Part shown: positions 48,896 through 64,000 of the stretch, in pieces
How positions within the stretch are numbered: the stretch's first letter is position 1
Layout of the letters: every line of letters starts with the position of its first letter
Source of the DNA: Streptomyces sp. TN58
GTDB taxonomy: Bacteria > Actinomycetota > Actinomycetes > Streptomycetales > Streptomycetaceae
Reading direction: 5' to 3'
NCBI RefSeq assembly: GCF_001941845.1
Contig: NZ_CP018870.1
Location: 992,001-1,056,000 of the forward strand
Length of the DNA stretch: 64,000 bases
Notes under the pieces: generated by a model
Told to the model about the DNA's origin: nothing
Database searches by the model: none
The model's input: only the letters and a program-made list of their open reading frames with translations
Translations under genes and position numbers: made by a program

Positions 48896-49456
48896 GTGTC
48901 GCACATGCGCAAGATCGTCGTTGCAGCCATTGCCGTTTCTCTGACCACCGTCGGTATTACGGCCAGCGCGTCCGCGGACCCGTCGAAGGACTCGAAGGCC
49001 CAGGCCGCCGTCGCCGAGGCCGGCATCACCGGCACCTGGTACAACCAGCTCGGCTCGACCTTCATCGTGACCGCGAACGCGGACGGCAGCCTCACCGGCA
49101 CCTACGAGTCGGCCGTCGGCAACGCCGAGAGCCGCTACGTCCTGACCGGCCGTTACGACAGCGCTCCGGCCACCGACGGCAGCGGCACCGCCCTCGGCTG
49201 GACGGTGGCGTGGAAGAACAACTACCGCAACGCCCACTCCGCCACCACGTGGAGCGGCCAGTACGTCGGCGGCTCCGAGGCCCGTATCAACACCCAGTGG
49301 CTGCTGACCTCGGGGACCACCGAGGCCAACGCCTGGAAGTCCACGCTGGTCGGCCACGACACCTTCACGAAGGTGAAGCCGTCAGCCGCGGCCATCGACG
49401 CCGCCAAGAAGGCCGGCGTCAACAACGGCAACCCGCTCGACGCCGTCCAGCAGTAG
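48896..49456 (+). CDS. Streptavidin (biotin-binding protein)
   Basis: An exported avidin-family protein of 186 residues from GTG 48896, or 183 from ATG 48905. The signal peptide ends at SASA-DPSK. The mature chain matches S. avidinii streptavidin apart from a few substitutions as I recall the reference (for example AAV for VSA near the N-terminus, NADGS for GADGA, GGSEAR for GGAEAR). Biotin-contact residues are all visible: Asn and Ser in WYNQLGSTF, Tyr and Ser in TYESAVG, Trp/Ser/Thr in [14 protein letters not shown], Trp in NTQWLL, Trp and Asp in [19 protein letters not shown] sits 7 bases before the GTG but 16 before the usual ATG, favouring the GTG. It secretes a tetramer that depletes environmental biotin. 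Confidence 0.98.
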
Positions 49457-49505
49457 AAGCGTCCGGGCGCCCCCAGGGTGCCGAGACGCCGGACCGTACA
49501 CGTGC

Positions 49506-49538
49506 GGGCGGCCCGGAGGTATCCCCTCCGGATCGCCC
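49506..49538 (+). terminator. Hairpin after streptavidin
   Basis: Stem of GGGCG plus CCGGAGG (49506-49519) pairing with CCTCCGG plus CGCCC (49525-49538), with a 2-base internal mismatch and 5-base loop; 50 bp after the stop. Confidence 0.65.
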
Positions 49539-49615
49539 GCCGCCGGCGGACCCCGCCCCGGGCGGCGTCCGCGCGAGACGCGTCTCACAGGGTTTCCTCC
49601 CCGGCTGGTATTCAG

Positions 49616-49625
49616 CGTGATCACG
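49616..49625. promoter_or_regulatory. Perfect palindrome CGTGATCACG upstream of the P450 gene
   Basis: A 10-bp palindrome 43 bp before the P450 start, flanked by GGTAT (49607-49611) and ATACC (49634-49638). The core GTGATCA recurs upstream of the MFS gene (54987-55000), suggesting one regulator for both units. Confidence 0.4.
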
Positions 49626-49667
49626 ACGGCTTGATACCGTCGACCGGGGGAAGGTGGAATTGACGTG

Positions 49668-50912
49668 ATGGCAATACCCGTTGACAGTGTGGACCTGTTC
49701 GACCAGGGGTACGCGCTCGACCCGTATCCGGCGATGGCGGCGCTACGAGAACACGAACCCGTGAAGTTCGACGAGAACACGGGACTTTGGCTGATCAGCC
49801 GGTACGCGGACGTGCGCGCCATTCTGCTCGATCCGGAGAATTACCTTCCGGACAATGCGATCGACGCAATAGGAAGATTTTCCGTGCCGACGCTGCGCGT
49901 CCTTGCACGGGTCAGGTTCGACCTTCCGCAAACGCTTGCAAACAACGGTTCCGACAGCCACGCCGGCTATCGGCGCATCATGACCAGGCTGTTCAACGCC
50001 CAGGCCGTGGCCGCCTCGGTGCCGATGGTCGAGAAGGTCGTCGCGGAGGCCCTCGACGACGTCGAGCAGCGGCTCGCCGCCGACGGCGTCTGCGATCTGG
50101 CGACGACCATCGCCCGGGACGTTCCCTTCCGGGTGATGCTGCGCCTGCTCGGGCTGGAAGCGGCCATCGACGTGGACATCGACACCCTCGCCCGCTGGAG
50201 CGACGCCTCCCTTGAGCTGTTCTGGGGGCGGCCGCGCGGCGAGCGCGAGGTGGCGCTGGCCCGCGAGGCCGCCGAGTTCTACGCCTGGCTCACCGGCCTG
50301 GTGTCCCAGCCCGCGCCCGAGGAGGGCACGCTCCTCGGCGCACTGGCCGCGCACCGGCTGCCGGACGGTGAGCCGCTGGGGGTGACCCAGAAGGCGGCCG
50401 TGGTCTACTTCATGATCATTGCCGGTCAGATGACGACCACCCAGATGCTGAGCACCATGTACCGCAGGGCGCTCCGGGAACCGGGTCTGTGGCAGCGGTT
50501 CGCCGCCGAGCCGGCGGTCGTGGAACCGTGGACCGAGGAGGTGCTGCGGCGGGACCCGCCCATCACCACCTGGCGCCGCGTCACCGCCCGGCCGGTGACG
50601 CTGTCCGGTGTCGGCCTCCCGGCAGGGGCTCCCCTGCTGCTGATGCTGTCGTCCACCGGATCGGACACCGAGGTCTTCGAACACCCCGAGCAGATCTGTC
50701 CGCACCGGGCCAACGTACGCAGGCACCTGTCCTTCGGTATCGGGCGCCACCGCTGCTCCGGGGCCGAACTGGCCAGGATGGAGGCCGACGTGGTGATGCG
50801 GATGACCGCCGAGCGGCTTCCGGACCTCCGCTTCTGCGAGGGGTCCTCGCCGGAGATGCTGGCGCTGCTGTCCTTCCGCGCCCCGCTCCAGGTACTGGTG
50901 CGGCGGGGCTGA
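49668..50912 (+). CDS. Cytochrome P450
   Basis: A 414-residue bacterial class I P450. The I-helix is IIAGQMTTTQ (~245), the K-helix ExxR is EEVLRR (~290), and the haem-Cys loop is FGIGRHRCSG (~350). It needs separate ferredoxin and reductase partners, not seen here. It lies between streptavidin and a BioF/KAS/ACP operon transcribed towards it. Bacillus BioI is a P450 that makes pimeloyl-ACP from acyl-ACP, so a role in a biotin-type precursor is possible; another tailoring oxidation cannot be excluded. ATG 49668 was chosen over GTG 49665 because AAGGTGG is better spaced. Confidence 0.9.
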   Translation: MAIPVDSVDLFDQGYALDPYPAMAALREHEPVKFDENTGLWLISRYADVRAILLDPENYLPDNAIDAIGRFSVPTLRVLARVRFDLPQTLANNGSDSHAGYRRIMTRLFNAQAVAASVPMVEKVVAEALDDVEQRLAADGVCDLATTIARDVPFRVMLRLLGLEAAIDVDIDTLARWSDASLELFWGRPRGEREVALAREAAEFYAWLTGLVSQPAPEEGTLLGALAAHRLPDGEPLGVTQKAAVVYFMIIAGQMTTTQMLSTMYRRALREPGLWQRFAAEPAVVEPWTEEVLRRDPPITTWRRVTARPVTLSGVGLPAGAPLLLMLSSTGSDTEVFEHPEQICPHRANVRRHLSFGIGRHRCSGAELARMEADVVMRMTAERLPDLRFCEGSSPEMLALLSFRAPLQVLVRRG

Positions 50913-50934
50913 CCCACCGCGCCCCGGTGCGCCC

Positions 50935-50960
50935 GGGGCCGGCCGATCCCGGCCGGCCCC
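50935..50960. terminator. Bidirectional hairpin between P450 and BioF-like genes
   Basis: 10-bp arms (50935-50944, 50951-50960) plus a closing G-C pair and 4-base loop, 23 bp after the P450 stop and before the convergent BioF-like stop. Confidence 0.7.
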
Positions 50961-50988
50961 CGAGCCGCCGTGCGCTCGGTCAAAGGCC

Positions 50989-52152
50989 TTACCAGGGACT
51001 GTGCTTGACCACCGTCTCGATGGCGCGGTCGATCTCCGCCTCGGTCAGGTCGGCCCGGGAGGTCAGCCGGATACGGGAGAACCGGTCGGGTACCGACGGC
51101 GGGCGGAAGCATGCCACCTTGACCCCCTCGGCCAGGCAGTCCTCCGCCCACCGCGCGGTCTGGGCCGCGGAGGGTCCGCGCACCGAGACCACGGCCGCCT
51201 GCGCGTCCGTCACCGGCAGGCCGGCCGCCCTGAGGCGTTCGGCGAGTGCCGCCGCGACCGCGCGGGTACGTGCCGGACGGTCCGGCTCGGCGCGCAGGAC
51301 CCGCAGCGCCGCCAGGGCGCCGGCCGCGGAGCCCGGGGCGAGCCCGGTGTCGAAGAGGAAGCTCCGGGCCATGTTCATGACGTGGTCGACGACCCGGCGG
51401 GGGCCGATCACCGCGCCGCCCTGGGCGCCCAGGGACTTCGACAGGGTGATGGTGGTGACCACGTCGGGGCTGCCGGCCAGGCCGGCGGCGGTCACCGCGC
51501 CCTCTCCGCGCCCGCCGACGACCCCGAAGCCGTGCGCGTCGTCGACGAGGAGTCCGGCGCCCTGCCGGCGGCAGGCGTCGAGTACGGCACCGAGGTCGAC
51601 GAGGTCGCCGTCGACGGAGAACACCGACTCGGTCACCGCCACCGCGCGCTGCTGCTCCCGTCCGGCGAGCACCCGTTCCAGAGCCTGCGGGTCGGCGTGC
51701 GCGGTGTCGACCACCTCGGCGCCGGAGAGGCGGTAGCCGTCGATCAGGGAGGCGTGGTTGAACGCGTCGGAGGCGATCAGGGTGCCCGGGCGGGCCAGTG
51801 CGGTCACCGCGCCCAGGTTGGCCAGGTAGCCGGAGGAGAAGACCAGCGCGGCCTCCGCCCCGGTGAACTCCGCCAGCTCCCGCTCCAGTTCGGTGTGCAC
51901 CTCGGTGGTTCCGGTGGCCAGCCGGGAGCCGGTGGAGCCGGCTCCCCAGGTCAGGGAGGCGTCGGCCACCGCCCGGACCACGCCGGGGTGGCGGGTGAGG
52001 CCGAGGTAGTCGTTCCCGCCGAAGTCGATCACGTCGGGCCGGGGGCCCCGGACCTGGACCCGGCGGGTGAGGCCCGCCCGGTCCCGGCGCCGGGTGCTGT
52101 CGTCGATCCACGCGAAGACGTCGTGCGGATCGCCGTGTCGCTCTGTTTCCAT
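50989..52152 (-). CDS. bioF: 8-amino-7-oxononanoate (KAPA) synthase, BioF-like
   Basis: A 387-residue PLP enzyme of the alpha-oxoamine synthase family, condensing an acyl thioester with L-alanine in the canonical BioF reaction. The family motifs are IDFGGNDYLGLTRHP (~43), DAFNHASLIDG (~128), LLVDDAHGFGVVG (~203) and the PLP Lys in TLSKSLGAQGGAV (~235). Identity to genuine BioF is closer than to serine palmitoyltransferase. It is the last gene of a minus-strand MFS-ACP-KAS-BioF operon, 16 bp after KAS. It could make KAPA or an analogue from the acyl chain built by the neighbouring KAS/ACP. Confidence 0.88.
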   Translation of the reverse strand: METERHGDPHDVFAWIDDSTRRRDRAGLTRRVQVRGPRPDVIDFGGNDYLGLTRHPGVVRAVADASLTWGAGSTGSRLATGTTEVHTELERELAEFTGAEAALVFSSGYLANLGAVTALARPGTLIASDAFNHASLIDGYRLSGAEVVDTAHADPQALERVLAGREQQRAVAVTESVFSVDGDLVDLGAVLDACRRQGAGLLVDDAHGFGVVGGRGEGAVTAAGLAGSPDVVTTITLSKSLGAQGGAVIGPRRVVDHVMNMARSFLFDTGLAPGSAAGALAALRVLRAEPDRPARTRAVAAALAERLRAAGLPVTDAQAAVVSVRGPSAAQTARWAEDCLAEGVKVACFRPPSVPDRFSRIRLTSRADLTEAEIDRAIETVVKHSPW

Positions 52153-52168
52153 CGCTTCGCTCCGAACG

Positions 52169-53350
52169 CTATCGGGCAGGGCCGAGGACGAGGACGCCGT
52201 TGTGGCCGCCGAAGCCGAACGACTGTGTCAGGGACGGTCCGGGTTCCCACTTCCTGCCCTCGCCCGCCACCACGTCCACGGCGAGCGCGGGATCGAGGGC
52301 GGTCAGACCGACGGTCGGGGGTATCACCGCGTGCCGCATGGACAGGAGCACCGCGACAGCCTCGAAGGCGCCGCCCGCGCCGAAGGCGTGCCCGGTGGCC
52401 CCCTTGGTGGAGGTCACCGGCGGGCAGTCGGCGAAGACCGACAGGATGGCGTTGGTCTCCGCTTCGTCGTTGCGCAGGGTTCCGGTGCCGTGGGCGTTGA
52501 TCTGCCGTACGTCCTCCGGGCGCACCCCGGCGTCCTGGAGGGCCAGGCGGATGCAGCGGGCCGCGTCGGCGCCGGTGGGCGCGGGCATGGTGATGTCGTG
52601 CGCGTCGGCCGTGCTGGCCGAGCCGAGCACCTCGCCGTGGATGACCGCGCCGCGCGCCACCGCCGTGTCCCACTCCTCCAGTACGAGTACCGCGGCGCCC
52701 TCGGCGATGGCGAAGCCGTCGCGCTCCGCGTCGAAGGGCCGGGTGCGGCCGGACGGGGACAGGGCCCGCATGTTGGTGAACCCGGCGACGATGGTGGGCG
52801 TGACGGCCGCCTCGGTGCCGCCGGCGATGACCCGGTCGCAGGTGCCGTCGGCGATCATCCGTGCCGCGTGCCCGATGGCGTGGGTGGCGGCGGCGCAGGC
52901 GGTCTCCAGGCTCTCGCACGGCCCCCGCCAGCCCTGGCGCATGGCCACGGTCGCGGCGGCGGCGTTGGCCATCATCATCGGCACGAGGAAGGGGGAGACC
53001 CGCCTGCCGCCGCGCTCGTGGTGGATGACGCTCTGCCGCTCGAAGGTGCTGACTCCGGCGAGGGCCGTGGCGACGACGACGCCGCTGCGTTCGGCGTCCA
53101 CCTCCGTCAGGCCCGAGTCGCGGTAGGCCATGTCGGCGGCCGCGACGGCGAACTGGGTGAACCGGTCGGTGTGCCGGGCCTCCCGGACGTCCAGCCAGGG
53201 TGACGGGTCCCAGTCGGTCAGTTCCCGGTGTCCGTCCGGGGGCGTTCGGAAGAGGCCCTCCCAGAAGGCCTCCGCCCCGGTGCCGCAGGCGCTCACGACA
53301 CCGAGGCCCGTGATCGCGACGCGGCGTGCCACGTCTGTCCGGCCGCTCAT
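52169..53350 (-). CDS. FabF-like beta-ketoacyl-ACP synthase
   Basis: A 393-residue KAS II-type enzyme with the Cys-His-His triad in ETACAAATHA (~150), NAHGTGTLRND (~285) and KGATGHAFGAGG (~320). Size and motifs match FabF/type II PKS KSalpha; there is no CLF partner. Its ATG overlaps the ACP stop (ATGA), so KAS and ACP work together. It probably elongates an acyl chain delivered to the BioF-like enzyme. Confidence 0.9.
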   Translation of the reverse strand: MSGRTDVARRVAITGLGVVSACGTGAEAFWEGLFRTPPDGHRELTDWDPSPWLDVREARHTDRFTQFAVAAADMAYRDSGLTEVDAERSGVVVATALAGVSTFERQSVIHHERGGRRVSPFLVPMMMANAAAATVAMRQGWRGPCESLETACAAATHAIGHAARMIADGTCDRVIAGGTEAAVTPTIVAGFTNMRALSPSGRTRPFDAERDGFAIAEGAAVLVLEEWDTAVARGAVIHGEVLGSASTADAHDITMPAPTGADAARCIRLALQDAGVRPEDVRQINAHGTGTLRNDEAETNAILSVFADCPPVTSTKGATGHAFGAGGAFEAVAVLLSMRHAVIPPTVGLTALDPALAVDVVAGEGRKWEPGPSLTQSFGFGGHNGVLVLGPAR

Positions 53351-53592
53351 CAGGCGACCAGCGAAAGGATCAGCCGGTGCAGGTCGCCGACGGTCTGGAT
53401 CTCCTCGACGGACTCGTCGGGCACCGAGATGCCGAACTCCTCCTCGATGGCCATGACCAGCTCGACCTGGATGAGGCTGCTGGCGCCCAGGTCGTCGGCC
53501 AGATGCGCGTCCGGGGTCACGGACGCGGCCTTGACCTGCAGGACGTCGACGGTGCAGGTGGTGAGCCGGTCGAAAACGTCGTCGTTAGCCAC
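53350..53592 (-). CDS. Dedicated acyl carrier protein
   Basis: An 80-residue carrier protein. The phosphopantetheine Ser is in [16 protein letters not shown] (~40). This departs from the usual DSL motif, as GASSL replaces GxDSL, but keeps the modified Ser and following hydrophobic residues. GTG start with GGGGAGG upstream. Coupled to the KAS by a 4-bp overlap. Confidence 0.88.
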
Positions 53593-53646
53593 GGGTGGCC
53601 AACCTCCCCCAAAATCGGATGGATTGCATAGGTTTTTTCAAAGGTT

Positions 53647-54879
53647 TCAAGGTCGTGCTTCGGGCACGGGCTCCCGCAGACCGCCGGCCGGCTGCCCGGC
53701 CCGGGGCTTGCGGCCCGCGCGAACCCCCGGCAGGACGGCCAGGGCCAGGGCGATCAGCTCCAGGCCCGCGCCCGTCCAAGCCAGGGCGGCCGGCGAGAGC
53801 CGGTCGAGGACCGCGCCGCCGACCGCACCGCCGAGGGCGACGCCGAGATACGACGCGGAGCTGTTGACGGAGATGGCCACGCTCGGGGCCGTCGGCGCCA
53901 GGTCCAGCACACGGTGGATGGCGGTGGGCGGTTCGGCCCAGTAGACCGTCCCCCAGGCGACCGTCACGGCGAGGAAGACGGCCACCACGGCCGCCGATCC
54001 GGAGGCGAAGAAGCTCGACAGCACCGCCAGCAGCGCCATGGCCAGGGCGACGCCCGACACCGAGGCGGTGAAGGTGCGTTGCGCCCCGATGCGGTCGCTG
54101 AGCCGGCCGCCGACCGCGTTGCCGACCGCCCCCGCGAGGCCGAACACCAGCAGGACGATGCTCACCCGGGCGTCGTCCATGCCCGTCGTGGCGCGGGTGA
54201 AGGCCGCCAGGTAGGTGAAGACGGTGAAACAGCCGGCGACCGCGAACAGGTTGGCGAGGACGGCCAGCAGCACCGGGCGCTGCGCGCCGATGCGCACCCG
54301 GTCCCGCATGCTGATCGCGGGCGGCTGCGGTACCGCCGGCAGGACCGCGAACAGGCCGACGAGGACGGGCAGGGCGAGCACCACGACCAGCGCCAGCGTC
54401 AGCCGCCAGCTGCCGAGTTGCCCGACCAGCGTGCCGCCCGGCACGCCGAGCGCCGTGGCCACGGTGAGCCCGCCGATGATCATGGAGACCGCCCGCCCCC
54501 GGTACCGCTCCCCCGCGAGCGCCGTCGCGGTGGCCGCGGCGGTGTTCATGTAGAGGGCGGCGCTGACCCCGGCGAGGATGCGGGCCGTCATCAGCGCCCC
54601 GTACGTCGGGGCGAGCGCGCCCAGGACGTTGGCGAGCAGGAAGGCCGCCATCGAACCGCGCAGCATGACGCGCCGGGACAGTCCGGCGGTCAGGGTCATC
54701 AGGACCGGTGCGCTGATCGCGTAGCTCAGCGCGAACGCGGTGACGAGCTGCCCGGCCATCGGCTCGGACACGTCCAGCTCACCGGCGATACGCGGAAGGA
54801 TCCCGCTGATGACGAAGCCGTCCGTGCCGACGGCGAAGGAGCCGATTGCGAGAAGCGCCAGAATCACCTTGTGGGGCAT
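53647..54879 (-). CDS. MFS drug/metabolite exporter (DHA1 type)
   Basis: A 410-residue, 12-helix major facilitator protein. Motif A is seen after helix 2-3 (LSRRVMLRG) and the motif C-like Gly/Pro region is in VATALGVPGGTLVG. Starts MPHKVILALLAIGSFAVGTD, with GGGAGG 5 bases upstream. First gene of the minus-strand operon with ACP, KAS and BioF-like genes (54-bp gap). It is likely to export the small-molecule product of this island, serving secretion and self-protection. Confidence 0.9.
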   Translation of the reverse strand: MPHKVILALLAIGSFAVGTDGFVISGILPRIAGELDVSEPMAGQLVTAFALSYAISAPVLMTLTAGLSRRVMLRGSMAAFLLANVLGALAPTYGALMTARILAGVSAALYMNTAAATATALAGERYRGRAVSMIIGGLTVATALGVPGGTLVGQLGSWRLTLALVVVLALPVLVGLFAVLPAVPQPPAISMRDRVRIGAQRPVLLAVLANLFAVAGCFTVFTYLAAFTRATTGMDDARVSIVLLVFGLAGAVGNAVGGRLSDRIGAQRTFTASVSGVALAMALLAVLSSFFASGSAAVVAVFLAVTVAWGTVYWAEPPTAIHRVLDLAPTAPSVAISVNSSASYLGVALGGAVGGAVLDRLSPAALAWTGAGLELIALALAVLPGVRAGRKPRAGQPAGGLREPVPEARP

Positions 54880-55633
54880 GACGCCTCCCGGGGACCCTGC
54901 GCGGGATCACGCATGTCAGGATCGTGAATTTCCCAGCTCCCCTTTCAGGTCGAGCCGGTCTCGTGAACCGGCTTTACGAACGGGGTCGTTGTGATCAACG
55001 TACCAGCAAGCATATGCCGACACGGACGGAGCGGGCGTGAGTGCGGTCACGCCCACCGCTGGCCGAAATCACCCTCCATGTCGCCGACTTGAATGACGGC
55101 GGAAAAGTCGATTTCCGGTCAACGGCAAGCCACACGCGGTACATGTGGCCTGAAACTACCGGGTCGGTCGACGAGATCGGACGGCTTGTCAATACCTGTT
55201 TCCGCCGAAGCGGGCCGACGATCCCTCAATAATCGCTTGCGCCGACGCGGTCGGGGGTGTGACAACTGACTGGAGCCACGCCAGGGGAAGTTGACGCAGA
55301 CCGCAGTGGGTTGAGTCACACGAGGATGCATATTCGGCCCGACGTGACTAGCATCGAACACCGGAACGGCCTTCCCGGACCGCGACACCGGCCATCGACC
55401 AACGGCCGATTATGAACATCCGGTGAAGATCCGAGCAGTGACAGACACAACGGGGGCTTGAAAACATGTCACTTTCATCCGCATCGCCATGCCCGGCTTC
55501 CGCCTGAGCGTGCCGTCGTGCGCTCGATTCGGCGCAATGGATTCATCCGTGAATCACCACCGATAGAAAAGTCGGTCAGCCGGTCCACCGTGCCCGAAAA
55601 GCCGGGCCGGCCGTCAAGGAGCTCGACCACATC
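54880..55633. promoter_or_regulatory. Large divergent intergenic region of the biotin-antagonist island
   Basis: About 750 bp, less GC-rich than its neighbours, with no convincing gene; open frames at 54995-55192, 55119-55388 and 55475-55786 (minus) look random. It must carry promoters for the MFS operon and the ADC-synthase operon. A TAGCAT -10-like element occurs near 55350 on the plus strand, about 280 bp before the ADC synthase start. Confidence 0.55.
54953..55000. promoter_or_regulatory. Two operator-like inverted repeats upstream of the MFS operon
   Basis: AGCCGGT (54953-54959)/ACCGGCT (54967-54973) with a 7-base spacer, and CGTTG (54987-54991)/CAACG (54996-55000) with a 4-base spacer. 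On the minus strand TTGATC and TAAAGC (16-bp spacing) could be -35/-10, with the second repeat over the -35. Confidence 0.45.
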
Positions 55634-57643
55634 GTGATAGACCTGCGAATCCTTCTCGTAGACAACTATGACTCCTACACGTGGAACCTCTTCCAGCTGA
55701 TCTGGAAGGTGGCGGGTGTGCCGCCGGTCGTCGTACGCAATGACGAGGCGACGGCGGAAGAACTGCTCGGACAGGACTTCACCCACGTCGTGATCTCACC
55801 GGGCCCGGGCACCGCGGCCAGGGACGAGGACTTCGGGCTGTGCCGGGACCTGCTGGAGCGGGCCGCCGTGCCCGTCCTCGGGGTGTGCCTCGGCCACCAG
55901 GGCCTGGCCCTCGCCTTCGGCGGCGAGGTGCGCCACGCGCCCGAGACCGTGCACGGGCAGACCAGCGCGATCACCCACACGGGCACCGGCGTCTTCGCCG
56001 GCATCCCGCAGGGCTTCCGCGCGGTGCGCTACCACTCCCTCACCGTCACCGAGCCGCTGCCGGAGCACCTCGTCGCGACCGCCTGGTCCGAGGACGGCGT
56101 CCTGATGGGCCTGCGGCACCGCGAACGCCCGCTGCACGGTGTGCAGTTCCACCCCGAGTCGGTGGACAGCGAGTACGGCGAGGAGATCGTCGCCAACTTC
56201 CTGGGCGTCACGCCCGCGCTGCGCTGGAGCGAACTGGAGGCGGACCTCGACGCCGAGGGCCTGTTCGTGCGCGCCTTCGCCGACAGCCCGTACAGCTTCT
56301 GGCTCGACAGCTCACGCGCCGCCTACGGGATGGGCCGCTACAGCTACCTCGGCTCCTGCGCCGGCGACGGCCTGGAGGTCCTTCGGGCGTACGCGGGGGC
56401 CGGCGTCGTGGAACGCGAGACCGACGAGGCCGTGGAGCGGCTGCCCGGCACCGTCTTCGAGCACCTGCGGGCCGGCCTCGCGACCGCACCCGTACCGGTC
56501 GGCGCGTCACCGGTGCCGTTCGCCGGCGGCTACGTCGGCTACCTCGGCTACGGCGTCAAGGGAAGCGTCGGCATCGGCCGGCCCGGCAGCGGTGAGCGGC
56601 CGGACGCCGAGCTGCTCCGGGTCGACCGCTTCGTGGCCTTCGACCACGAGGCCGACCGGCGCTACCTGGTCACCGTCGGCCTGTCCGCCGAGGAGCACAA
56701 CGCCTGGTGCGAGGAGGTGCGCGCTCTGGCGCGCCGCCCGCTGGTGCCCCGTCCCCGGCGCGAGAGCCCGCCCGCCGTACTGGAGCCGGGCGTCGACCGG
56801 GAGACGTACCTGCGCCACTTCGACACCGTGCGGCAGTGGCTGCACGACGGCGAGTCGTACGAGGCCTGCTACACCTACCAGATCAGCGGCACCAGCGAGG
56901 CCGACCCGCTGGAGACCTACCTGCGGCTGCGGGCCGAGAACCCGGCACCCTACGCCGCCTACGTCCGGCTCGGCGAGCGCTCGCTGCTGAGCTCCTCGCC
57001 GGAGCGGTTCGTCACGGTCGCGGGCAACGGCGAGGTGGAGGCGAAGCCCATCAAGGGCACGGCCCCCCGGCACGCCGACCCGGTGGCCGACGAGGCCGCC
57101 CGCGAGGCACTGGAGACGGACCGCAAGATCCGCAGCGAGAACCTGATGATCGCGGACCTGCTGCGCAACGACCTCGGGCAGGTCTGCGACGCCGGCACCG
57201 TCCACGTGCCCCGCCTGATGGCCGCCGAGTCCTACGCCACCGTCCACCAGCTGGTCACCACCGTGCGCGGCAGGCTGCGCTCCGACCGCGGCGCGGTCGA
57301 CTGCGTGCAGGCGCTCTTCCCCGGCGGCTCGATGACCGGCGCGCCGAAGAAGCGGACGGTGGAACTCCTTGACGAGCTGGAGCCGGAGGAGCGGGGGGTC
57401 TACTCCGGCAGCCTCGGCTGGTTCGGGTTCGACGGGGCGGCGGACCAGTCCATCGTCATCCGCACCATCGTCTGGGAGGGCAAGCGCGTGCGCATCGGCG
57501 TGGGCGGAGCGCTGATCGTGCTCTCCGACGGCGAGGAGGAGTTCCAGGAGACGCGGCTCAAGGCCCGTGCGCTGCTGCGGGTCCTCGGCGTCGAGGAGCT
57601 GGACGGGGCCACATCGGGAACGGCTGCGAGGTGCCGGGGATGA
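55634..57643 (+). CDS. 4-amino-4-deoxychorismate (ADC) synthase, fused PabA-PabB type
   Basis: A 669-residue fusion. The N-terminal glutamine amidotransferase (~1-195) has the nucleophile Cys in GVCLGHQG and the His-Glu pair in GVQFHPESVD. The C-terminal chorismate-binding domain (~220-650) has PIKGTAPR, whose Lys is the hallmark of ADC synthase (anthranilate synthases have PIAGT), plus SENLMIADLLRNDLG and FPGGSMTGAPK. It aminates chorismate to ADC. GTG 55634 follows AGGAG at 12 bases. Start of a long operon; with the mutase downstream this points to an aminodeoxyprephenate-derived amino acid, not folate. Confidence 0.93.
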   Translation: MIDLRILLVDNYDSYTWNLFQLIWKVAGVPPVVVRNDEATAEELLGQDFTHVVISPGPGTAARDEDFGLCRDLLERAAVPVLGVCLGHQGLALAFGGEVRHAPETVHGQTSAITHTGTGVFAGIPQGFRAVRYHSLTVTEPLPEHLVATAWSEDGVLMGLRHRERPLHGVQFHPESVDSEYGEEIVANFLGVTPALRWSELEADLDAEGLFVRAFADSPYSFWLDSSRAAYGMGRYSYLGSCAGDGLEVLRAYAGAGVVERETDEAVERLPGTVFEHLRAGLATAPVPVGASPVPFAGGYVGYLGYGVKGSVGIGRPGSGERPDAELLRVDRFVAFDHEADRRYLVTVGLSAEEHNAWCEEVRALARRPLVPRPRRESPPAVLEPGVDRETYLRHFDTVRQWLHDGESYEACYTYQISGTSEADPLETYLRLRAENPAPYAAYVRLGERSLLSSSPERFVTVAGNGEVEAKPIKGTAPRHADPVADEAAREALETDRKIRSENLMIADLLRNDLGQVCDAGTVHVPRLMAAESYATVHQLVTTVRGRLRSDRGAVDCVQALFPGGSMTGAPKKRTVELLDELEPEERGVYSGSLGWFGFDGAADQSIVIRTIVWEGKRVRIGVGGALIVLSDGEEEFQETRLKARALLRVLGVEELDGATSGTAARCRG

Positions 57644-58140
57644 GTACGGTGGAATGCGGGACGGGCGGCGGGAGCGGCTTCGAGGCGGGACCGGCCAGGC
57701 CCGACGAGGCGCAGGCGGTGGCCGACGCCGTCACCGCGCTCCTGCGGGAGCTGCGCGGGGACGCCTCGCACACGATCCCGGGGCTCGGGGCCGCGGTGGC
57801 GGACGCCATCGCCGGCCGGGACGGCGCCGGGGTGCTGGTCGCGCGGGACGAAGGGGGCCGCGTCGCCGGCGTACTGGGGTACACCACCCAGACCGCGCTG
57901 CGACTCGCCGCGCCGTACCGGCACGTCCAGGAGCTGTGGGTGGAGCCGGGCCTGCGGTCGAAGGGGGTCGCCGCCCTGCTGCTGGCCGAACTGGACGCGC
58001 TGTGCGCCGCCGACGGCGTGCGCCGGGTCGAAGTCTGCCTGCCGTCCGAGCAGTTCCCCTCCTACCCGCGGACGCTGGCCTTCTACGAGCGCTCCGGATT
58101 CCGTGCCATCGGCCCGCGCGTGATCAAGGACCTGTCATGA
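57640..58140 (+). CDS. GNAT N-acetyltransferase
   Basis: A 166-residue GCN5-type acetyltransferase. The acetyl-CoA loop is LRSKGVAALLLAELD (~108-122), preceded by HVQELWVEPG. ATG 57640 overlaps the ADC synthase stop (ATGA). Paired directly with a deacetylase-like gene. It could acetylate the ring or backbone amine of the pathway product or an intermediate for self-protection; that is inference. Confidence 0.85.
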   Translation: MSTVECGTGGGSGFEAGPARPDEAQAVADAVTALLRELRGDASHTIPGLGAAVADAIAGRDGAGVLVARDEGGRVAGVLGYTTQTALRLAAPYRHVQELWVEPGLRSKGVAALLLAELDALCAADGVRRVEVCLPSEQFPSYPRTLAFYERSGFRAIGPRVIKDLS

Positions 58141-59075
58141 CCCTGCATGTGGTGGTACCGGAGGAGTCCGAGGCCCTGCCGTTCACGGTCGAGCCGGGCG
58201 GCGCCCAGGTGGCCAGCAAGGAGGTGCCCGAGCGGATCCACCGGATCCTGGCCGGGCTGCTCGACGGCGGGGCGGTCCTCGCCCCGCCCGGCGCGGACGA
58301 GACGGCCCGCGCCGAACGCCTCGCCGAGGCCGTGCACGGCAAGGAACTGCTGGAGCACCTGCGCCACGGGGTGCCCGCGGGCGCGGAGTCCGTCCTGGAC
58401 GACGCGTTCGCGGCGCCCGGTCTGGTGCAGGAGACGCCCGTCACCCGCGGGGTCTGGCCGGCGGCGCTGGGCGCCGCGGCCGCCGCCGTCCGGGCGGCCG
58501 GGCTGACGGCCCGCCTCGGAGAGCACGCCTACGCGCTGGTGCGGCCGCCGGGCCACCACGCGGGGCCCGGCTGGTACGGCGGGTACTGCTTCCTGAACAA
58601 CGCCGTCATCGCCGCCCGGACCCTCCAGGAGGAGGGCGCCTCCCGGGTCGGCATCCTCGACGTCGACTACCACCTGGGCAACGGCACGCTCGCCTGCGTC
58701 CAGGGCGATCCGACGCTGCCGTTCGCGTCGGTGCACTCCACCCGGCCCGACGACTTCCCGTACTCCTTCGAGCCGGGCCCCGGCCTCTTCGGGGCGGGGG
58801 CCGACCCCGGCCCGGAGGGGTTCGCGGCGCTCGTCGGGGACGCCCTGTCGCATCTGCGCGGCCACGGCGCCGAGGCCCTGGTCGTCTCGGTCGGCTTCGA
58901 CGTGCTCGGGGGCGACCCGCACGGCTCCTGGAGCCTCGCGCCGGAGGTGTTCGGTCCCGTCGCCGCGCTGGTGGCGGAGCAGCGGCTGCCCACCGTCTTC
59001 GTCCAGGAGGGCGGATACGGACTCCCGTCCCTGCGCGGCGCGGCCCGCGCCCTGGCATTGGAGGCCTCGCGATGA
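58137..59075 (+). CDS. Histone deacetylase-fold amidohydrolase (acetylpolyamine amidohydrolase type)
   Basis: A 312-residue Zn-dependent deacetylase-fold enzyme. Catalytic His pair RPPGHHAGPG (~140), metal ligands in LDVDYHLGNGT (~178) and VGFDVLGGDP (~260), and the active-site Tyr in QEGGYGLPS (~290). These bacterial enzymes remove acetyl groups from amines. ATGA overlap with the GNAT gene. The adjacent acetyltransferase/deacetylase pair suggests an acetyl-masking and unmasking cycle. Confidence 0.87.
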   Translation: MTLHVVVPEESEALPFTVEPGGAQVASKEVPERIHRILAGLLDGGAVLAPPGADETARAERLAEAVHGKELLEHLRHGVPAGAESVLDDAFAAPGLVQETPVTRGVWPAALGAAAAAVRAAGLTARLGEHAYALVRPPGHHAGPGWYGGYCFLNNAVIAARTLQEEGASRVGILDVDYHLGNGTLACVQGDPTLPFASVHSTRPDDFPYSFEPGPGLFGAGADPGPEGFAALVGDALSHLRGHGAEALVVSVGFDVLGGDPHGSWSLAPEVFGPVAALVAEQRLPTVFVQEGGYGLPSLRGAARALALEASR

Positions 59076-59392
59076 ACGCGACCCCCGAAGAGGTCCTGCG
59101 GCCGTTCCGCGAACGGCTGGAGGCACTGGACCAGCAGCTCGCGGAACTCGTCGCGGCCCGTCTGGCCGTCTGCTGCGAGGTGGCCGAGGCCAAGCGGGCC
59201 AACGGCATCCCGATGATGCAGCCGCAGCGGGTCACCGCGGTCCGCGAGGCGTACGCGGCCCGGGGCGAACGGCTGGACCTCTCCCCCGACTTCATGCGCT
59301 CCCTGGCGACCTTGCTCATCGACGAGGCCTGCCGCCTGGAGGACGAGATCATCGACTCTCCCCCGGCGGCCGGCGCGGAGGCACTGCGATGA
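59072..59392 (+). CDS. Chorismate-mutase-fold ADC mutase (PapB-like)
   Basis: A 106-residue AroQ-type helical mutase. Key residues appear in LDQQLAELVAARLAVCCEV (first helix Arg) and EAKRANGIPMMQPQRVTAVR (Lys, Arg and turn). With ADC synthase in the same operon, the likely substrate is 4-amino-4-deoxychorismate, giving 4-amino-4-deoxyprephenate, as PapB does in pristinamycin and chloramphenicol-type pathways. ATGA overlap at 59072. Confidence 0.87.
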   Translation: MNATPEEVLRPFRERLEALDQQLAELVAARLAVCCEVAEAKRANGIPMMQPQRVTAVREAYAARGERLDLSPDFMRSLATLLIDEACRLEDEIIDSPPAAGAEALR

Positions 59393-59976
59393 CCCTGACC
59401 TTCACCACCCTCGGCCCCGAGGGAAGCTGCCACGAGAACGCCGTGCGCAACTACCTCGCCTTCCAGGGCATCGGGGACGACGCGAAGATCGACCTCACCA
59501 TCGACCTGCACGAGGGCCTGGAGCGGGTGCGCCGGAGCGAGTCCGACTACCTCGTCCAGTGCAGCGCCCACCCCGAGGTGCACCTGCTCACCGAGCGGTA
59601 CTTCGAAGAGGTCCACGTGGTGGACACCTTCATCCACCCCACGAAGGAACTGGTCCTCCTCAGCCGCGCCGACGTCGAGCGGCCCCGGTCGATCGGGCTG
59701 GTCCCGGCGACCGCCGGCTACGTCGACGTGTCGCAGTGGGAGGAGGTCGTACCCGTGGCGTCCAAGCCGGTGGTCGGCGCCGGACTGCTGGCCGGGGCGT
59801 ACGAGTCCGGGCTCACGCACCTGGAGTACCTGGAGAAGTCGGACGGGGCGCTGCGCCTGGACCGCTACATCGGCGCGGTGACCACCACCTGGGTGGTCTA
59901 CGGACGCCGCCCCCGGTTCTCCGGTGACGTCATCGGCACCAAGTGCCGCGCATACCTGCTGGGAGAGGACGTATGA
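59389..59976 (+). CDS. Prephenate-dehydratase-like, probable aminodeoxyprephenate decarboxylase
   Basis: A 195-residue protein with the periplasmic-binding fold of prephenate dehydratase (TFTTLGPEGSCHENAV at the N-terminus; VASKPVVGAGLLAG). It lacks the TRF motif essential for dehydratase chemistry (the equivalent region reads AVTTTWVVYGRR) and has no ACT domain. The same pattern marks BacA-type non-aromatising prephenate decarboxylases (bacilysin and related pathways). Here it would decarboxylate 4-amino-4-deoxyprephenate while keeping a cyclohexadienyl ring. ATGA overlap at 59389. Confidence 0.8.
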   Translation: MTLTFTTLGPEGSCHENAVRNYLAFQGIGDDAKIDLTIDLHEGLERVRRSESDYLVQCSAHPEVHLLTERYFEEVHVVDTFIHPTKELVLLSRADVERPRSIGLVPATAGYVDVSQWEEVVPVASKPVVGAGLLAGAYESGLTHLEYLEKSDGALRLDRYIGAVTTTWVVYGRRPRFSGDVIGTKCRAYLLGEDV

Positions 59977-61133
59977 GCGAGACCGCACCCGCCGCGCGGA
60001 GGATCCGCGTCTGCGACACCACCCTGCGCGACGGCGAGCAGACCTGCGGTGTGGCCTTCCAGGTCGAGGAGAAGGTGCGGATCGCCCGTCTCCTGGACGA
60101 GATGGGCGTCGACGTCATCGACGCCGGCTTCCCGGCCTCCTCGCAGGCCGACCAGGACGCCGTGCGCGGCATGGCCGAGCTGGGGCTGAACGCGCGCGTC
60201 GTGGCGTTCTGCCGGCCGAACCGCGCCGAGATCGACCTGGCCAGGGCCTGCGGCGCGAACGCGATCTACACCTTCCTCCCCACCTCCGACGTGCACATGC
60301 GGGTCAAGTTCGGCGGTACGGACAGCTCGGTGCGCGACCGCCTCAAGCGGGAGATGGCCGACGGCGTCGCCTATGCCAAGGACCTCGGCATGTACGTCGG
60401 CTGCGGGTCGGAGGACGCCACCCGGACCCCGTACGACTACCTGGAGGAGGTCCTCGTACTCGCCCAGGAGAGCGGCGCGGACCTGGTCGGTGTCGCGGAC
60501 ACCGTCGGCTCGACCACTCCCGACGCCTTCCGTGCGCTCATCGGGCGGCTGCGCTCGAAGATCCACGTGACGCTCTCGCTGCACTGCCACAACGACTTCG
60601 GCCTGGCCACGGCCAACACCGTCGCCGGCATCCTCGGCGGCGCCGACGAGGTCCAGTGCACGGTCAACGGGCTCGGCGAGCGCGCCGGCAACGCCTCCCT
60701 GGAGGAGGTCGTGGTGGCCCTCACCCAGCTGTACGGCTTCGAGACGAACATCGACCTGTCCCGGCTCAAGCCCATGTCGAACCTGATCGCCGACCTGTCC
60801 GGCATCGAGGTCAGCCCCATGAAGCCGATCGTCGGCGGGAACGCCTTCTCGCACGAGTCCGGCCTGCACGTGTCCTCCGTGATGAAGGACTCCACCGCCT
60901 ACGAGCCGCTGCGGCCCGAGCTGGTGGGCCACACGCGGCGGATCGTCATGGGCAAGCACTCCGGGAAGGGCATCATCTCGCACGTCCTGGACAAGCACGG
61001 GCTGGCCTACGACGACCAGGTCCTCGGGGCGGTCCTGCGCGAGGTCAAGGAGGCGTCCGTGCTGACGAAGTCGAGCGTCACCGAGGCTCAGGTCGTCGCG
61101 ATCTACCACGAGCGAACGGCCATGGCGGTATGA
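59973..61133 (+). CDS. Short isopropylmalate/homocitrate synthase-like enzyme (chain extension)
   Basis: A 386-residue HMGL-like TIM barrel. The catalytic motifs are CDTTLRDGEQTCGVAF (~13), LHCHNDFGLATANT (~200) and the Gly-rich VNGLGERAGNASLEE (~228). It ends after the linker (GKHSGKGIISHVL) and lacks the LeuA allosteric domain, so it resembles NifV or AksA and should not be feedback regulated. It would add an acetyl unit to the 2-oxo acid side chain, making the homologated amino acid backbone. ATGA overlap at 59973. Confidence 0.9.
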   Translation: MSETAPAARRIRVCDTTLRDGEQTCGVAFQVEEKVRIARLLDEMGVDVIDAGFPASSQADQDAVRGMAELGLNARVVAFCRPNRAEIDLARACGANAIYTFLPTSDVHMRVKFGGTDSSVRDRLKREMADGVAYAKDLGMYVGCGSEDATRTPYDYLEEVLVLAQESGADLVGVADTVGSTTPDAFRALIGRLRSKIHVTLSLHCHNDFGLATANTVAGILGGADEVQCTVNGLGERAGNASLEEVVVALTQLYGFETNIDLSRLKPMSNLIADLSGIEVSPMKPIVGGNAFSHESGLHVSSVMKDSTAYEPLRPELVGHTRRIVMGKHSGKGIISHVLDKHGLAYDDQVLGAVLREVKEASVLTKSSVTEAQVVAIYHERTAMAV

Positions 61134-61906
61134 GCGAAGAGCACGACACCGGCGCCTGGTTCGCGGACCAGGCGTTCTGGAGGGACTTCTACCCCCATCT
61201 GTTCTCGGCGGAGCGGGCCGCGCAGGCGGTGCGGATCGTGGAGCGGTCCCCGCTGTTCCGCTTCCCGTCCGGTGCCCGTGTGCTGGACCTGTGCTGCGGG
61301 CCGGGCCTGTTCACCGTTCCGCTGGCCCGGGCCGGGCACAGGGTCACTGGCGTGGACCTGAGCGCGCCGCTGCTGGAGCGGGCCCGGGCCGGCAGCCGGG
61401 ACGCGGGCGTCGACGTCCGGTTCGTGGAGGCGGACATGCTGGCCTTCGCCGAGCCGGAGGCGTTCGACGCCGCCGTCAACATGTTCACGTCGTTCGGGTA
61501 TCTGGACCGGCACGAGGACAACGTCCAGGTGCTGCGCAACCTGCACGCCAGCCTCGCTCCGGGCGGAACCCTGCTCGTCGACGTCGTAGGCAAGGAGGTC
61601 CTCGCGCGCCGCGACGAACGCGTCTCCCTGTCCGAGCTGGACGGGAGGGTGCTGGTCCAGCGGGACACCGTCCTCGACGACTGGAGCCGGCTGCGCAGCG
61701 ACTGGTACTCGATCGAGGGCTCGCGCGCGGCCACCGGATCGATGACCATCCACCTCTACAGCGCGGCCGAACTGCGGGACATGCTGCGCCGCGCGGGCTT
61801 CGCAGAGGTCCGCTTCCACGGGGACTACGACGGCGGACCGTACGACCACCGGGCCGAGCGCCTGATCGCGGTCGCCACGAAGGGCGTGGACGTCCGTGGG
61901 GGCTGA
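61130..61906 (+). CDS. SAM-dependent methyltransferase (class I)
   Basis: A 258-residue methyltransferase. Motif I VLDLCCGPGLFTVPLARAGH (~47-66), motif II acidic VTGVDLSAP, then FDAAVNMFTSFGY. Neither O- nor N-specificity is readable; stravidin-type peptides carry N-methyl groups, which fits. ATGA overlap at 61130; the next gene overlaps its end by 11 bp. Confidence 0.88.
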   Translation: MSEEHDTGAWFADQAFWRDFYPHLFSAERAAQAVRIVERSPLFRFPSGARVLDLCCGPGLFTVPLARAGHRVTGVDLSAPLLERARAGSRDAGVDVRFVEADMLAFAEPEAFDAAVNMFTSFGYLDRHEDNVQVLRNLHASLAPGGTLLVDVVGKEVLARRDERVSLSELDGRVLVQRDTVLDDWSRLRSDWYSIEGSRAATGSMTIHLYSAAELRDMLRRAGFAEVRFHGDYDGGPYDHRAERLIAVATKGVDVRGG

Positions 61907-63143
61907 GGTCGTGGTGGTGCGGTCGGCGTCCGCCGTCGGCCGTGAGGGGTGGGACGCGCTGGTCCCGCCGGAGCAGGTGTACCTCTCGTACGACTGGCTG
62001 CGCGCGGTCGAGGAGTGCTTCGGCTTCGAACTGGTGCTGTTTCTGCTGCGGGACGGCGGGCGCACGGTGGCCGGCGTACAGGGCCTGCTGGTGCGGGACC
62101 CGGACGCGTTCCCGTACCACGATCCGGCGGGCGCCCTGTTCGGCGACTACGAGATGGACCACCTCCGGCAGGCGCTGGCACGCGACCGGTCGCCGCGGGA
62201 GTCGGCCGACGCGGGCGCGCTGCTCGCCGCGGTCGTGCGCGCCGAGGCCGCGCACACGCGTGCGGCGGCCTATCCGGCGCTGGTGATGACCAGTCCGTAC
62301 GGGTACGCGAGCGACGTGCTGACCCTGCCCGGGACCGACCGGGAGGCCGCGATCGGCGAACTGCTCGCCGCCGTGGAGGCGTTCTGCCGCACCGAGCGGA
62401 TCCCCTCGCAGTCCTTCCTGTGGGAGTCCGGCGGGGACGCGGAGCTGCACCGGGCGCTCGCCGGCCACGGCTACCTGGAGTTCCTCTCCGACCTGGAGTA
62501 CCACCTCGACACCGCGTCCTGCGGCTCGCTGGAGGAGTACCTGGAGACCCTGGAACGCAAGCGGCGTACGGCCGCCCGCGCCGAGATCCGCAAGTTCGGC
62601 GAGGCCGGGCTGCGTGTGGAGCGGATCGCGGACCCCGACCCCGCGGTGATCGCCCGCTGCGCCGAACTGTCCGAGGGGCAGCAGAAGAAGTACGGGCTGC
62701 CCGTCGACCGCGGCGCGATGGAGCGGCTGTTCACCGCGCTGCTGGCCGCCCCGGCGCTGGGCCCCTCGCTGTTCGTGGTGCGGCGGCACGGCGCGCAGGG
62801 CCCGGACGTCTCGGGCTTCCTGCTCTGCCTGGAGGCCGGCGGCGTCCTGCACCCCAAGTTCCTCGGCTTCGACGCCGCCGCCGTCGGGGCCGGCTATGCC
62901 TACTTCAACCTCGTCTTCTACCACCAGGTCGAGCGGGCGGTGGCGGGCGGCGCCCGCCGCGTCTCGTACGGCATGGGTTCGGCGGACGCGAAGCGGCTGC
63001 GCGGCTGCCGCCCGGCCCCGGTGCGCGGATGGATCCGGTTCTCCTCGCCGGCGGCGCAGCGGCGGATCGAGCCGTACGTCGCCGTCTTCGACTGCCTCAA
63101 GAAACAGCTTCTCGGCGACCAGGACGGACGCGTTCAGCGATGA
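61896..63143 (+). CDS. FemAB/GNAT-fold acyl- or aminoacyl-transferase
   Basis: A 415-residue protein with two GNAT-like halves. The peptidogalycan-biosynthesis (CysN/FemX-like) pattern is visible: an aromatic-rich YLSYDWLRAVEECFGFELVL start, SQSFLWESGG mid-protein, and LEYHLDTASCGSLEEYLETL then KRRTAARAEIRKF (~215-235). FemAB proteins form peptide bonds using aminoacyl-tRNA, or use acyl-CoA. It is a candidate peptide-bond former for the final product in the absence of an NRPS or ATP-grasp in view. GTG 61896, overlapping the methyltransferase. Confidence 0.72.
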   Translation: MGAEVVVVRSASAVGREGWDALVPPEQVYLSYDWLRAVEECFGFELVLFLLRDGGRTVAGVQGLLVRDPDAFPYHDPAGALFGDYEMDHLRQALARDRSPRESADAGALLAAVVRAEAAHTRAAAYPALVMTSPYGYASDVLTLPGTDREAAIGELLAAVEAFCRTERIPSQSFLWESGGDAELHRALAGHGYLEFLSDLEYHLDTASCGSLEEYLETLERKRRTAARAEIRKFGEAGLRVERIADPDPAVIARCAELSEGQQKKYGLPVDRGAMERLFTALLAAPALGPSLFVVRRHGAQGPDVSGFLLCLEAGGVLHPKFLGFDAAAVGAGYAYFNLVFYHQVERAVAGGARRVSYGMGSADAKRLRGCRPAPVRGWIRFSSPAAQRRIEPYVAVFDCLKKQLLGDQDGRVQR

Positions 63144-64000
63144 CTCTCGTAAAACAGCTCTTCGAGCACAAACTCGGCCGTCCCGTCAGCACCGGCGAGG
63201 TCGTGGACCTGCCGTTCGACCTGTGCTGGGGCAGCGAGATGACCGTCAAGTGGGCCCTGGACATCCTGCGCGACTCCGGCTTCGACGACGCGTACATCGC
63301 CGCGGGCCTCGCCGCGCAGCGGGAGAAGACCGCCTTCGTCTTCGACCACGTGGTCCCCACCCACACCGCCTCGATGGCCTCGATCCTCGTGGAGCTGCGG
63401 CGCTTCGCGCGCGAGCACGGGATCAGGGTGTTCGACGTGGGCTACGACGGCGGCATCCAGCACAAGATCCTCATCGAGCAGGGTCTGATCCGCCCCGGCG
63501 ACGTCGCGGTCGGCGCGGACTCGCACAGCTGCACCGCGGGCGCGATCGCCTCGCTCGCGACCGGCATCGGCTCCACGGACCTGGCGGTGGCGCTGGTCCG
63601 GGGCAGCTGCTGGATGCGGGTGCCTGAGGCGACGCTGGTCCGCTTCCACGGGAGCCTGCGCCCGCACGTCCAGGGCAAGGACGTGGCGCTGTACCTGTGC
63701 GGCCTGATCGGCGTGCACGGGGCGGTCTACCGCAGCCTGGAGTTCGGCGGACCGGGTCTGGCGTCCCTCGCGGTCACCGACCGGCTGTCGCTGAGCAACA
63801 TGGCGGTGGAGATGGGCGCCAAGTACGGCCTGTTCCCCACGGACGGGGTGCTCGCCGACTACCTCGGCGACGGGGTGGAGTACCCGTCCTTCACCGTCGA
63901 CGAGGACGACGCCGGGTACGCCGACGTGATCGACGTCGACCTGGGCCTGATCGAGCCGACGGTCGCGCTGCCGTTCTCCCCGGACAACGCCGTGGGCACC
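63140..64000 (+). CDS. LeuC/aconitase-like dehydratase large subunit (3' end cut by window edge)
   Basis: The frame is open from ATG 63140 to the window end: 287 residues visible. It starts MTLVKQLFEHKLGRPVSTGE and has VFDHVVPTH, the Fe-S/substrate segment VGADSHSCTAGAIASLATG, TDLAVALVRGSCWMRVPEA, and LSNMAVEMGAKYGLFPTDG, as in LeuC/HacA large subunits. Only the first cluster Cys region is visible; the CxxC pair should lie beyond the edge. It would isomerise the malate-type intermediate made by the isopropylmalate-synthase-like enzyme. ATGA overlap with the FemAB-like gene. A LeuD-like small subunit is expected next. Confidence 0.9.
   Translation, partial: MTLVKQLFEHKLGRPVSTGEVVDLPFDLCWGSEMTVKWALDILRDSGFDDAYIAAGLAAQREKTAFVFDHVVPTHTASMASILVELRRFAREHGIRVFDVGYDGGIQHKILIEQGLIRPGDVAVGADSHSCTAGAIASLATGIGSTDLAVALVRGSCWMRVPEATLVRFHGSLRPHVQGKDVALYLCGLIGVHGAVYRSLEFGGPGLASLAVTDRLSLSNMAVEMGAKYGLFPTDGVLADYLGDGVEYPSFTVDEDDAGYADVIDVDLGLIEPTVALPFSPDNAVGT

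Follow-up and report, generated by a model that had tools for sequence, protein, structure and literature searches.

The window analyzed here, a stretch of 64,000 nucleotides, corresponds to positions C1:992001-1056000 of the single-contig, 7.585-Mb genome of Streptomyces sp. TN58. Next to a streptavidin gene it holds five genes whose products are a cytochrome P450, a paralogue of the biotin enzyme BioF, a FabF-like ketosynthase (KAS), an acyl carrier protein (ACP), and a putative exporter of the MFS class. A sequence-only reading had claimed such a block at 49668-54879, and open frames, Pfam and NCBIfam matches, motifs, and synteny all confirm it. All five genes have uninterrupted reading frames at the coordinates stated for them, and the P450 gene, on the plus strand, is convergent to an operon on the minus strand that reads MFS-ACP-KAS-BioF. 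All five proteins score above the cut-offs of their Pfam families. The ACP also passes the NCBIfam acyl carrier protein model (82.8 bits; cut-off 71), whereas the BioF-like protein, at 373.6 bits, does not reach the bioF equivalog cut-off of 426.45, and the KAS, at 414.4 bits, does not reach the 493.75 of fabF. The known catalytic motifs are in place: Cys/His/His in the KAS, Ser39 in the ACP, Lys239 in the BioF-like protein, and the heme motif and ExxR in the P450. The start codon of KAS and the stop codon of ACP share an ATGA, and thus the two genes are probably translationally coupled; the spacing between KAS and BioF is 16 bp. The facing stops of P450 and BioF are separated by 76 bp, in which a GC-rich inverted repeat can be made out by eye only; the terminator scan did not flag it, and the promoter and terminator scan added nothing firm.

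The genome has two avidin genes, one at window 49025-49369 and the other about 18 kb past the window end, and these stand at the borders of an island (G000:C1:1040.9-1074.7 kb, G000 being our own genome). Its order is sav1, P450 (plus), BioF-like, KAS, ACP, and MFS (all minus), the sta operon (plus), acd-type genes, and sav2. By gene content and order, this is the layout of the “Streptavidin BGC Nexus” (BGC, biosynthetic gene cluster) described in May 2026 (PMC13336041, cited here from parts of its text), in which the mkp cluster makes alpha-methyl-KAPA, that is, 8-amino-7-oxononanoate (KAPA) methylated at the carbon adjoining the carboxyl. The compound inhibits BioA, with a Ki of 14.9 uM on the E. 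coli enzyme, and alpha-methyldethiobiotin is formed from it (PMC13336041). The mkp cluster of Streptomyces virginiae DSM 40094 has seven genes, in the same place between sav1 and sta as the block here; MkpB is the ACP, MkpC the ketosynthase, MkpD the BioF-like protein, and MkpG the P450, while MkpF is given 56% similarity to FabH (PMC13336041). Heterologous expression of mkp gave alpha-methyl-KAPA, deletion of mkpC, mkpD, or mkpG in S. virginiae abolished it, and disruption of mkpE or of mkpF left its production (PMC13336041). No statement on the identity of MkpA was found in the parts of that paper cited here. In our strain the counterparts of mkpB, C, D, and G lie in a single locus, between sav1 and sta, in a two-streptavidin island that also has acd-type genes (Table 1).

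Table 1. Genes and intervals of the window, by window position
Feature	Position	Strand	Basis or remark
MkpG-type cytochrome P450	49668..50912	+	Pfam p450; heme motif FGIGRHRCSG
MkpD-type BioF paralogue (alpha-oxoamine synthase)	50989..52152	-	Pfam Aminotran_1_2; NCBIfam bioF below cut-off
MkpC-type FabF-like ketosynthase (KAS)	52169..53350	-	Pfam ketoacyl-synt N and C; Cys/His/His motifs
MkpB-type acyl carrier protein	53350..53592	-	Pfam PP-binding; Ser39 in LGASSL
MFS protein, putative exporter, heads minus-strand operon	53647..54879	-	Pfam MFS_1; by position probably MkpA
Convergent gap, 76 bp, between P450 and BioF stops	50913..50988	.	site of one or two additional genes in relatives
Streptavidin sav1, left island border	48896..49456	+	Pfam Avidin; NCBIfam streptavidin 358.4 bits, cut-off 300
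Divergent intergenic region, mkp-type operon/stravidin operon	54880..55633	.	spare bioA site in G063
Stravidin/amiclenomycin-type (sta) operon start, runs beyond window	55634..64000	+	chorismate-binding, chorismate mutase, HMGL-like, other domains

From these likenesses, the block is very likely an mkp-type cluster for the synthesis and export of alpha-methyl-KAPA. Among the options of the sequence-only reading was a biotin-pathway analogue, such as an alpha-methyl form, with export by the MFS protein, which homology to the published cluster supports (PMC13336041), and its description of the block as a separate small system was right. The pathway is very probably the one already known from close relatives (PMC13336041), of which our strain would be a slimmed-down natural version. 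A further genome thereby confirms that genes for several poisons of the biotin pathway lie together in the streptavidin island, and the strain offers a natural five-gene methyl-KAPA pathway for testing gene requirement.

Relatives of the block and the missing accessory genes

Two other genomes, G066 and G063, carry the block in syntenic form, with protein identities of 89-98%: 94, 92, 98, 94, and 95% to G066 for MFS, ACP, KAS, BioF, and P450, and 89, 90, 91, 91, and 91% to G063. The ratio of nonsynonymous to synonymous substitution rates (dN/dS) of our genes against each of the two is 0.10-0.28, a figure hardly affected by the way the genes were cut (the cuts of mkpC in each relative and of mkpA in G063 lack the stop codon, and those of mkpC do not begin at its start codon). 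Because of this synteny and these ratios, the block is more than a chance assembly. In G066 the avidin genes are 48 kb apart, with a block resembling polyketide and nonribosomal peptide synthetase (PKS/NRPS) genes between acd and sta, an arrangement that fits S. virginiae; G063, with a spacing of 36 kb and without that (nda) block, is probably S. avidinii, a species whose nexus has been described (PMC13336041). The five genes have the same order and relative strands in G066 as in our strain, but our island lacks both the nda block and the AMP ligase and thiolase that G066 has between BioF and P450. The island order of G063 is the same as ours, except that the AMP ligase is kept, again with no thiolase, and that a spare bioA lies between exporter and sta.

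By position, the AMP ligase and the thiolase would be MkpE and MkpF, and both positions are empty in our genome, where the 76 bp hold neither gene. The nearest NCBIfam models, PRK07638 (acyl-CoA synthetase) and PRK06690 (acyl-CoA acyltransferase), have cut-offs that both G066 proteins fall below and that were each exceeded in 1 of 14 control genomes. Searched with these models, our genome showed no close mkpE or mkpF homologue among its best matches, which scored 169 and 236 bits compared with 348 and 341 for the G066 proteins; the loci kept were 28-31% and 33-45% identical. The yhfT-yhfS pair of Bacillus is one of an acyl-CoA synthetase and an acyl-CoA acyltransferase. In S. aureus, BirA regulates a yhfS-yhfT operon of putative homologues of those two enzyme types (PMC6391492, cited from part of its text). 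As a lead, the genes found at the positions of mkpE and mkpF may descend from a pair regulated by biotin. The G066 protein at the MkpF position (L133:16924-18123) matches Thiolase_N at 240.6 and Thiolase_C at 104.2 bits, and TIGR01930 at 390 bits (cut-off 240.55); its ketoacyl-synt match is weak (26.5 bits), and no FabH-type model occurs among its 3 Pfam families or the best 25 of its 44 NCBIfam families. If this thiolase is the MkpF of the paper, the FabH label would be better read as one of the thiolase superfamily. With both positions empty, our strain is a natural double absence, which accords with the dispensability reported for mkpE and for mkpF (PMC13336041).

The core of the block is also found away from avidin. 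On a plasmid of Streptantibioticus cattleyicolor (L091:13582-25657) and in the genome G161 (L177), ACP-KAS-BioF is convergent with a P450, but, unlike in our strain, there follow BioB, BioD (BioA in G161 only), BioMNY-like transporter genes, an AMP ligase, and a thiolase. When 54 proteins from our island and its surroundings were compared with these two stretches (31 and 20 kb), the exporter (the probable MkpA), both streptavidins, and all sta proteins were without a match at E<=1e-3. G161 is probably S. lydicus-like, because its P450 groups tightly with P0024, a protein named S. lydicus, and it is the likely match of the S. lydicus mdb cluster for alpha-methyldethiobiotin (PMC13336041), in which the same convergent arrangement is found and the MkpD falls in one clade with ours. 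The second bioADB operon that adjoins mdb has no counterpart beside our block.

In a tree of 51 rows, all five MkpD rows from nexus and mdb-type loci, our own among them, form one clade (support 100/99), apart from a 34-row clade holding the Streptomyces BioFs (95/95) and a 9-row Pseudonocardiaceae clade, the branching order of the three being unsettled. Our genome has in addition a primary-type BioF, the KAPA synthase of the same enzyme family, in an open frame about 57 kb away; it is 60% identical to the MkpD-type protein, which differs from it in its separate clade and in lying below the bioF equivalog cut-off. Duplication of BioF in place was considered and rejected, since MkpD branches apart from both the Streptomyces and the Pseudonocardiaceae BioFs. 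Two more distant BioF-like domains occur in the genome: one at window ~8732-9787, far from the island, 37% identical to MkpD and within a 1883-codon open frame, and one at C1:6948015-6949091 (L090), 36% identical, part of an open frame of 1487 codons that has a weak KAS match next to it.

In 199 same-genus genomes including our own, with at most nine candidates scored in each, 23 had a P450 at E<=1e-100, and by this route the block is rare, being present in four (our own, G063, G066, and G161). The loci of 20 of the 23 were fetched, the remaining three being our own, G063, and G066; those of G017 (7.3 kb) and G174 (11.0 kb) are on short contigs that show their surroundings in part. Avidin genes occur in 5 of 150 genomes. 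A contig scan with MkpD kept 80 of 589 confirmed places, each of which matched at most two of the six proteins used as queries (sav1, MkpA-D, and MkpG), in a scan where several flanks are short and near records may be left out. A plasmid search gave 559 records with a match, 10 of them listed; the two examined were that of S. cattleyicolor, with the block, and that of Streptomyces sp. BHT-5-2, which has a BioF alone, grouping with the primary-type BioFs. Among 61 genomes, with at most 31 candidates scored, only our own has two listed matches of at least 50% identity.

Proposed pathway and rival readings

In the pathway proposed, the host FabH would prime a branched starter, isobutyryl- or 2-methylbutyryl-CoA, which the FabF-like KAS would extend on the ACP, yielding a branched acyl-ACP of C8 or C9. 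The P450 would convert the branched end to a carboxyl, on the isobutyryl chain by oxidizing a methyl and on the 2-methylbutyryl chain by removing the end carbon. The resulting 6-methylpimeloyl-ACP would be condensed with L-alanine by the BioF-like enzyme. The MFS protein, a plausible exporter of alpha-methyl-KAPA, would release the product, which would compete for BioA in neighbors and would in part be converted to alpha-methyldethiobiotin. Published labeling shows that branched starters are incorporated, with valine-d8 giving +4 and threonine-13C4 giving +2 (PMC13336041). The first would fit an isobutyryl starter that keeps CD3 and CD while one methyl is oxidized to the carboxyl, and the second a 2-methylbutyryl starter whose end carbon is lost. 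A starter plus two malonyl units (C8/C9), equal to one FabH step and a single round of MkpC, would account for both. By this count, the two MkpC rounds after an MkpF condensation that the paper words (PMC13336041) would make the chain two carbons too long.

Several points weigh against this reading for our strain. The product is carried over by homology. The published disruptions of mkpE and mkpF are reported singly, and a set without both is not described in the parts of the paper cited (PMC13336041). Only six conserved changes set the MkpD clade apart from other BioFs (5 rows against 43, three outgroup rows dropped), and none lies in the motifs taken as catalytic; the substrate preference of MkpD can therefore not be read from its sequence. 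Moreover, the P450s of nexus and mdb-type loci do not form one clade in a quick tree, and thus our P450 owes its assigned function mostly to comparison with the close relative.

What else might the block do? The sequence-only reading had offered extra KAPA production as an option, in which the block overproduces ordinary KAPA and so outcompetes amiclenomycin at the producer's own BioA. It has on its side that the block adjoins the stravidin-type operon and that only 1 of 14 BioA-family matches in our genome is above the cut-off (as is 1 of 6 BioB-family matches, both beside the primary-type BioF), leaving no spare target enzyme. However, the relative's cluster gave alpha-methyl-KAPA, itself a BioA inhibitor (PMC13336041), the relatives of the block in S. 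cattleyicolor and G161 lie in stretches with no sta or sav match, and MkpD forms a clade of its own in a genome that already has an open primary-type bioF. For these reasons, the published product, the MkpD phylogeny, and the occurrence of the block away from stravidin genes, a KAPA supply is not supported, and we regard it as highly improbable. Supply of pimelate by ACP, KAS, and P450 to the neighboring acidomycin cluster is more improbable still. Acidomycin does need a pimelate-type chain (PMC13336041; PMC13111796, 2026, also cited from part of its text), and the block and acd share an island; but in S. albus the acd genes by themselves yielded acidomycin (PMC13336041), so that this reading fails, a fragment listed as streptavidin plus acidomycin genes sufficed in two other hosts (PMC13111796), and a BioF would be superfluous.

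Two further alternatives take the missing genes as their starting point. With the mkpE and mkpF positions empty and the P450 family diverse, other starters or a changed P450 could lead to a different biotin-pathway analogue, for instance a dehydro or ethyl-branched one; against this stand the 95% and 94% identities of P450 and BioF to G066, and we give it the same slight credence as the KAPA supply. A cluster in decay, no longer working after the loss of two of its seven genes, is the least probable of all, for the remaining five are open, keep their catalytic motifs, and show the low dN/dS given above, and mkpE and mkpF are each reported as dispensable in S. virginiae (PMC13336041). An mkp-type cluster for alpha-methyl-KAPA is the reading we keep.

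P450 history and self-protection

The sequence-only reading had compared the P450 with BioI, and this holds for its proposed role: the best 60 of 163 matches to solved P450s include no entry known as BioI, no direct alignment to BioI having been made, and the closest of those listed are CYP116-type. The I-helix of our P450 reads AGQMTT, with Met where solved relatives have Glu. Loss of this acid as a trait specific to mkp was rejected, since 141 of 143 rows have the acid of the acid-alcohol pair replaced (by Ser, Ala, Met, Thr, Val, or Leu); of the other two, one has Glu and one was unmatched by the pattern. The 143 rows comprise our own protein, 120 proteins listed of 520 minus P0019, left out because its C-terminal part appeared out of frame, and 23 genome or plasmid loci.

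The P450 tree requires four changes for the five MkpG rows, three or more of which are forced by starred branches, and 16 of 500 shuffles were as low as four, by a quick method and with mkp-cluster membership established for few P rows. Since MkpD is one clade and the P450s are not, the BioF core appears shared and probably old, and the P450 history more mixed. Nested in the group that unites the nexus and mdb P450s are the stand-alone P450s of G109 and G138, which could reflect either an exchange of P450s or the departure of the stand-alone genes from a cluster. These two loci (L175 and L176) have P450s 71-75% identical to MkpG, no mkp genes, and a partly shared neighborhood, and they may show an older role of the family. 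Use of the P450 as a cluster marker was also rejected, as only G161 of the 20 fetched P450 loci has an adjacent ACP-KAS-BioF set. G206 has a related P450 with a BioF alone, divergently arranged (L193, 9826-12531); the BioF groups with primary-type BioFs, and the pair is possibly a P450-fed biotin route.

How the strain would survive two predicted BioA inhibitors is a question that its single BioA above the cut-off sharpens. G063 has a second BioA (G063:C18:39929-41167; L222) between mkp exporter and sta/stravidin operon, 77% identical to our BioA and scoring 540 bits against TIGR00508 (cut-off 405). The site measures 92 bp in our strain versus 1442 bp in G063, with both flanks homologous (78-82%); no second BioA is present in our streptavidin island or was found in that of G066. 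The spare BioA is, by this comparison, an optional part of the island; our genome has none, and hence the strain must protect itself otherwise. The MFS exporter would be the obvious candidate. A resistant primary BioA was considered and is not supported: no evidence puts the changes common to the three nexus primaries (positions 127, 270, 394, and 406, and a two-residue insertion) in the active site. The two complete spare BioAs share changes at 48, 144, 146, and 230, where 28 of 28 primaries agree, and at 159 (27 of 28); a third extra BioA, partial and 58% identical, at a contig end of G109, was left out of the comparison. The M. tuberculosis BioA of PDB 4w1v has Phe and Ala at the equivalents of 144 and 146, so that the spare copies may just have retained an older state, and a single clade for them found no support.

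Taken together, these observations allow a broader reading, which we offer as possible rather than probable: that ACP, KAS, BioF, P450, and exporter are the natural minimum for alpha-methyl-KAPA, and that two builds arose around an old MkpD core, with the P450 recruited or exchanged separately. One would be an exporter build, in streptavidin islands; the other, in loci free of avidin, would combine dedicated biotin genes with a transporter of the BioMNY type, exporter and dedicated biotin genes being alternative safeguards for BioA. Beyond the cited parts of PMC13336041, the present comparison finds the absence of both accessory genes, a spare BioA in an S. avidinii-like nexus and none in ours, an MkpD clade shared with avidin-free clusters, P450s that are not one clade, and a thiolase in the “FabH-like” position. 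A five-gene version, a spare nexus BioA, and the thiolase identity were not found in those parts, a word search of which gave neither “thiolase” nor “second bioA”; the supplements and figures may hold them.

Neighboring genes

The operon that begins at 55634 is amiclenomycin-type by synteny and by the published nexus, which cites Montaser and Kelleher 2020 for the stravidin cluster (PMC13336041); its proteins are 76-97% identical in G066 and G063. Acidomycin and stravidin clusters co-occur in several strains (PMC13111796). The best 60 listed PDB sequence matches of sav1 are all streptavidins or constructs of streptavidin. The acd-type genes before sav2 encode PPTase-like (phosphopantetheinyl transferase), P450, AMP ligase, NRPS, SDR, and MFS proteins, the labels of PPTase-like, NRPS, and this second MFS being presumed from synteny and recall; the primary-type biotin genes lie about 26 kb beyond sav2. 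A search for an operator shared by seven promoter regions of the island and the biotin genes found none (best three-way score 39, compared with 37-40 in 30 crude shuffles of two-base blocks), and Rfam gave no match in 47000-64000. Among the papers available, the relevant ones on these biotin antimetabolites were PMC13336041 and PMC13111796, and none was found on streptavidin with dehydrobiotin. Adjoining sav1, at window 44734-48600, is a large protein with a helix-turn-helix-like start and WD-like repeats (by eye), which is 80-91% identical in both other islands. Inside the stravidin-type operon are a histone-deacetylase-family protein (58137-59075) and a FemAB/GNAT-like gene (61896-63143), which, speculatively, may point to an acyl-protected intermediate.

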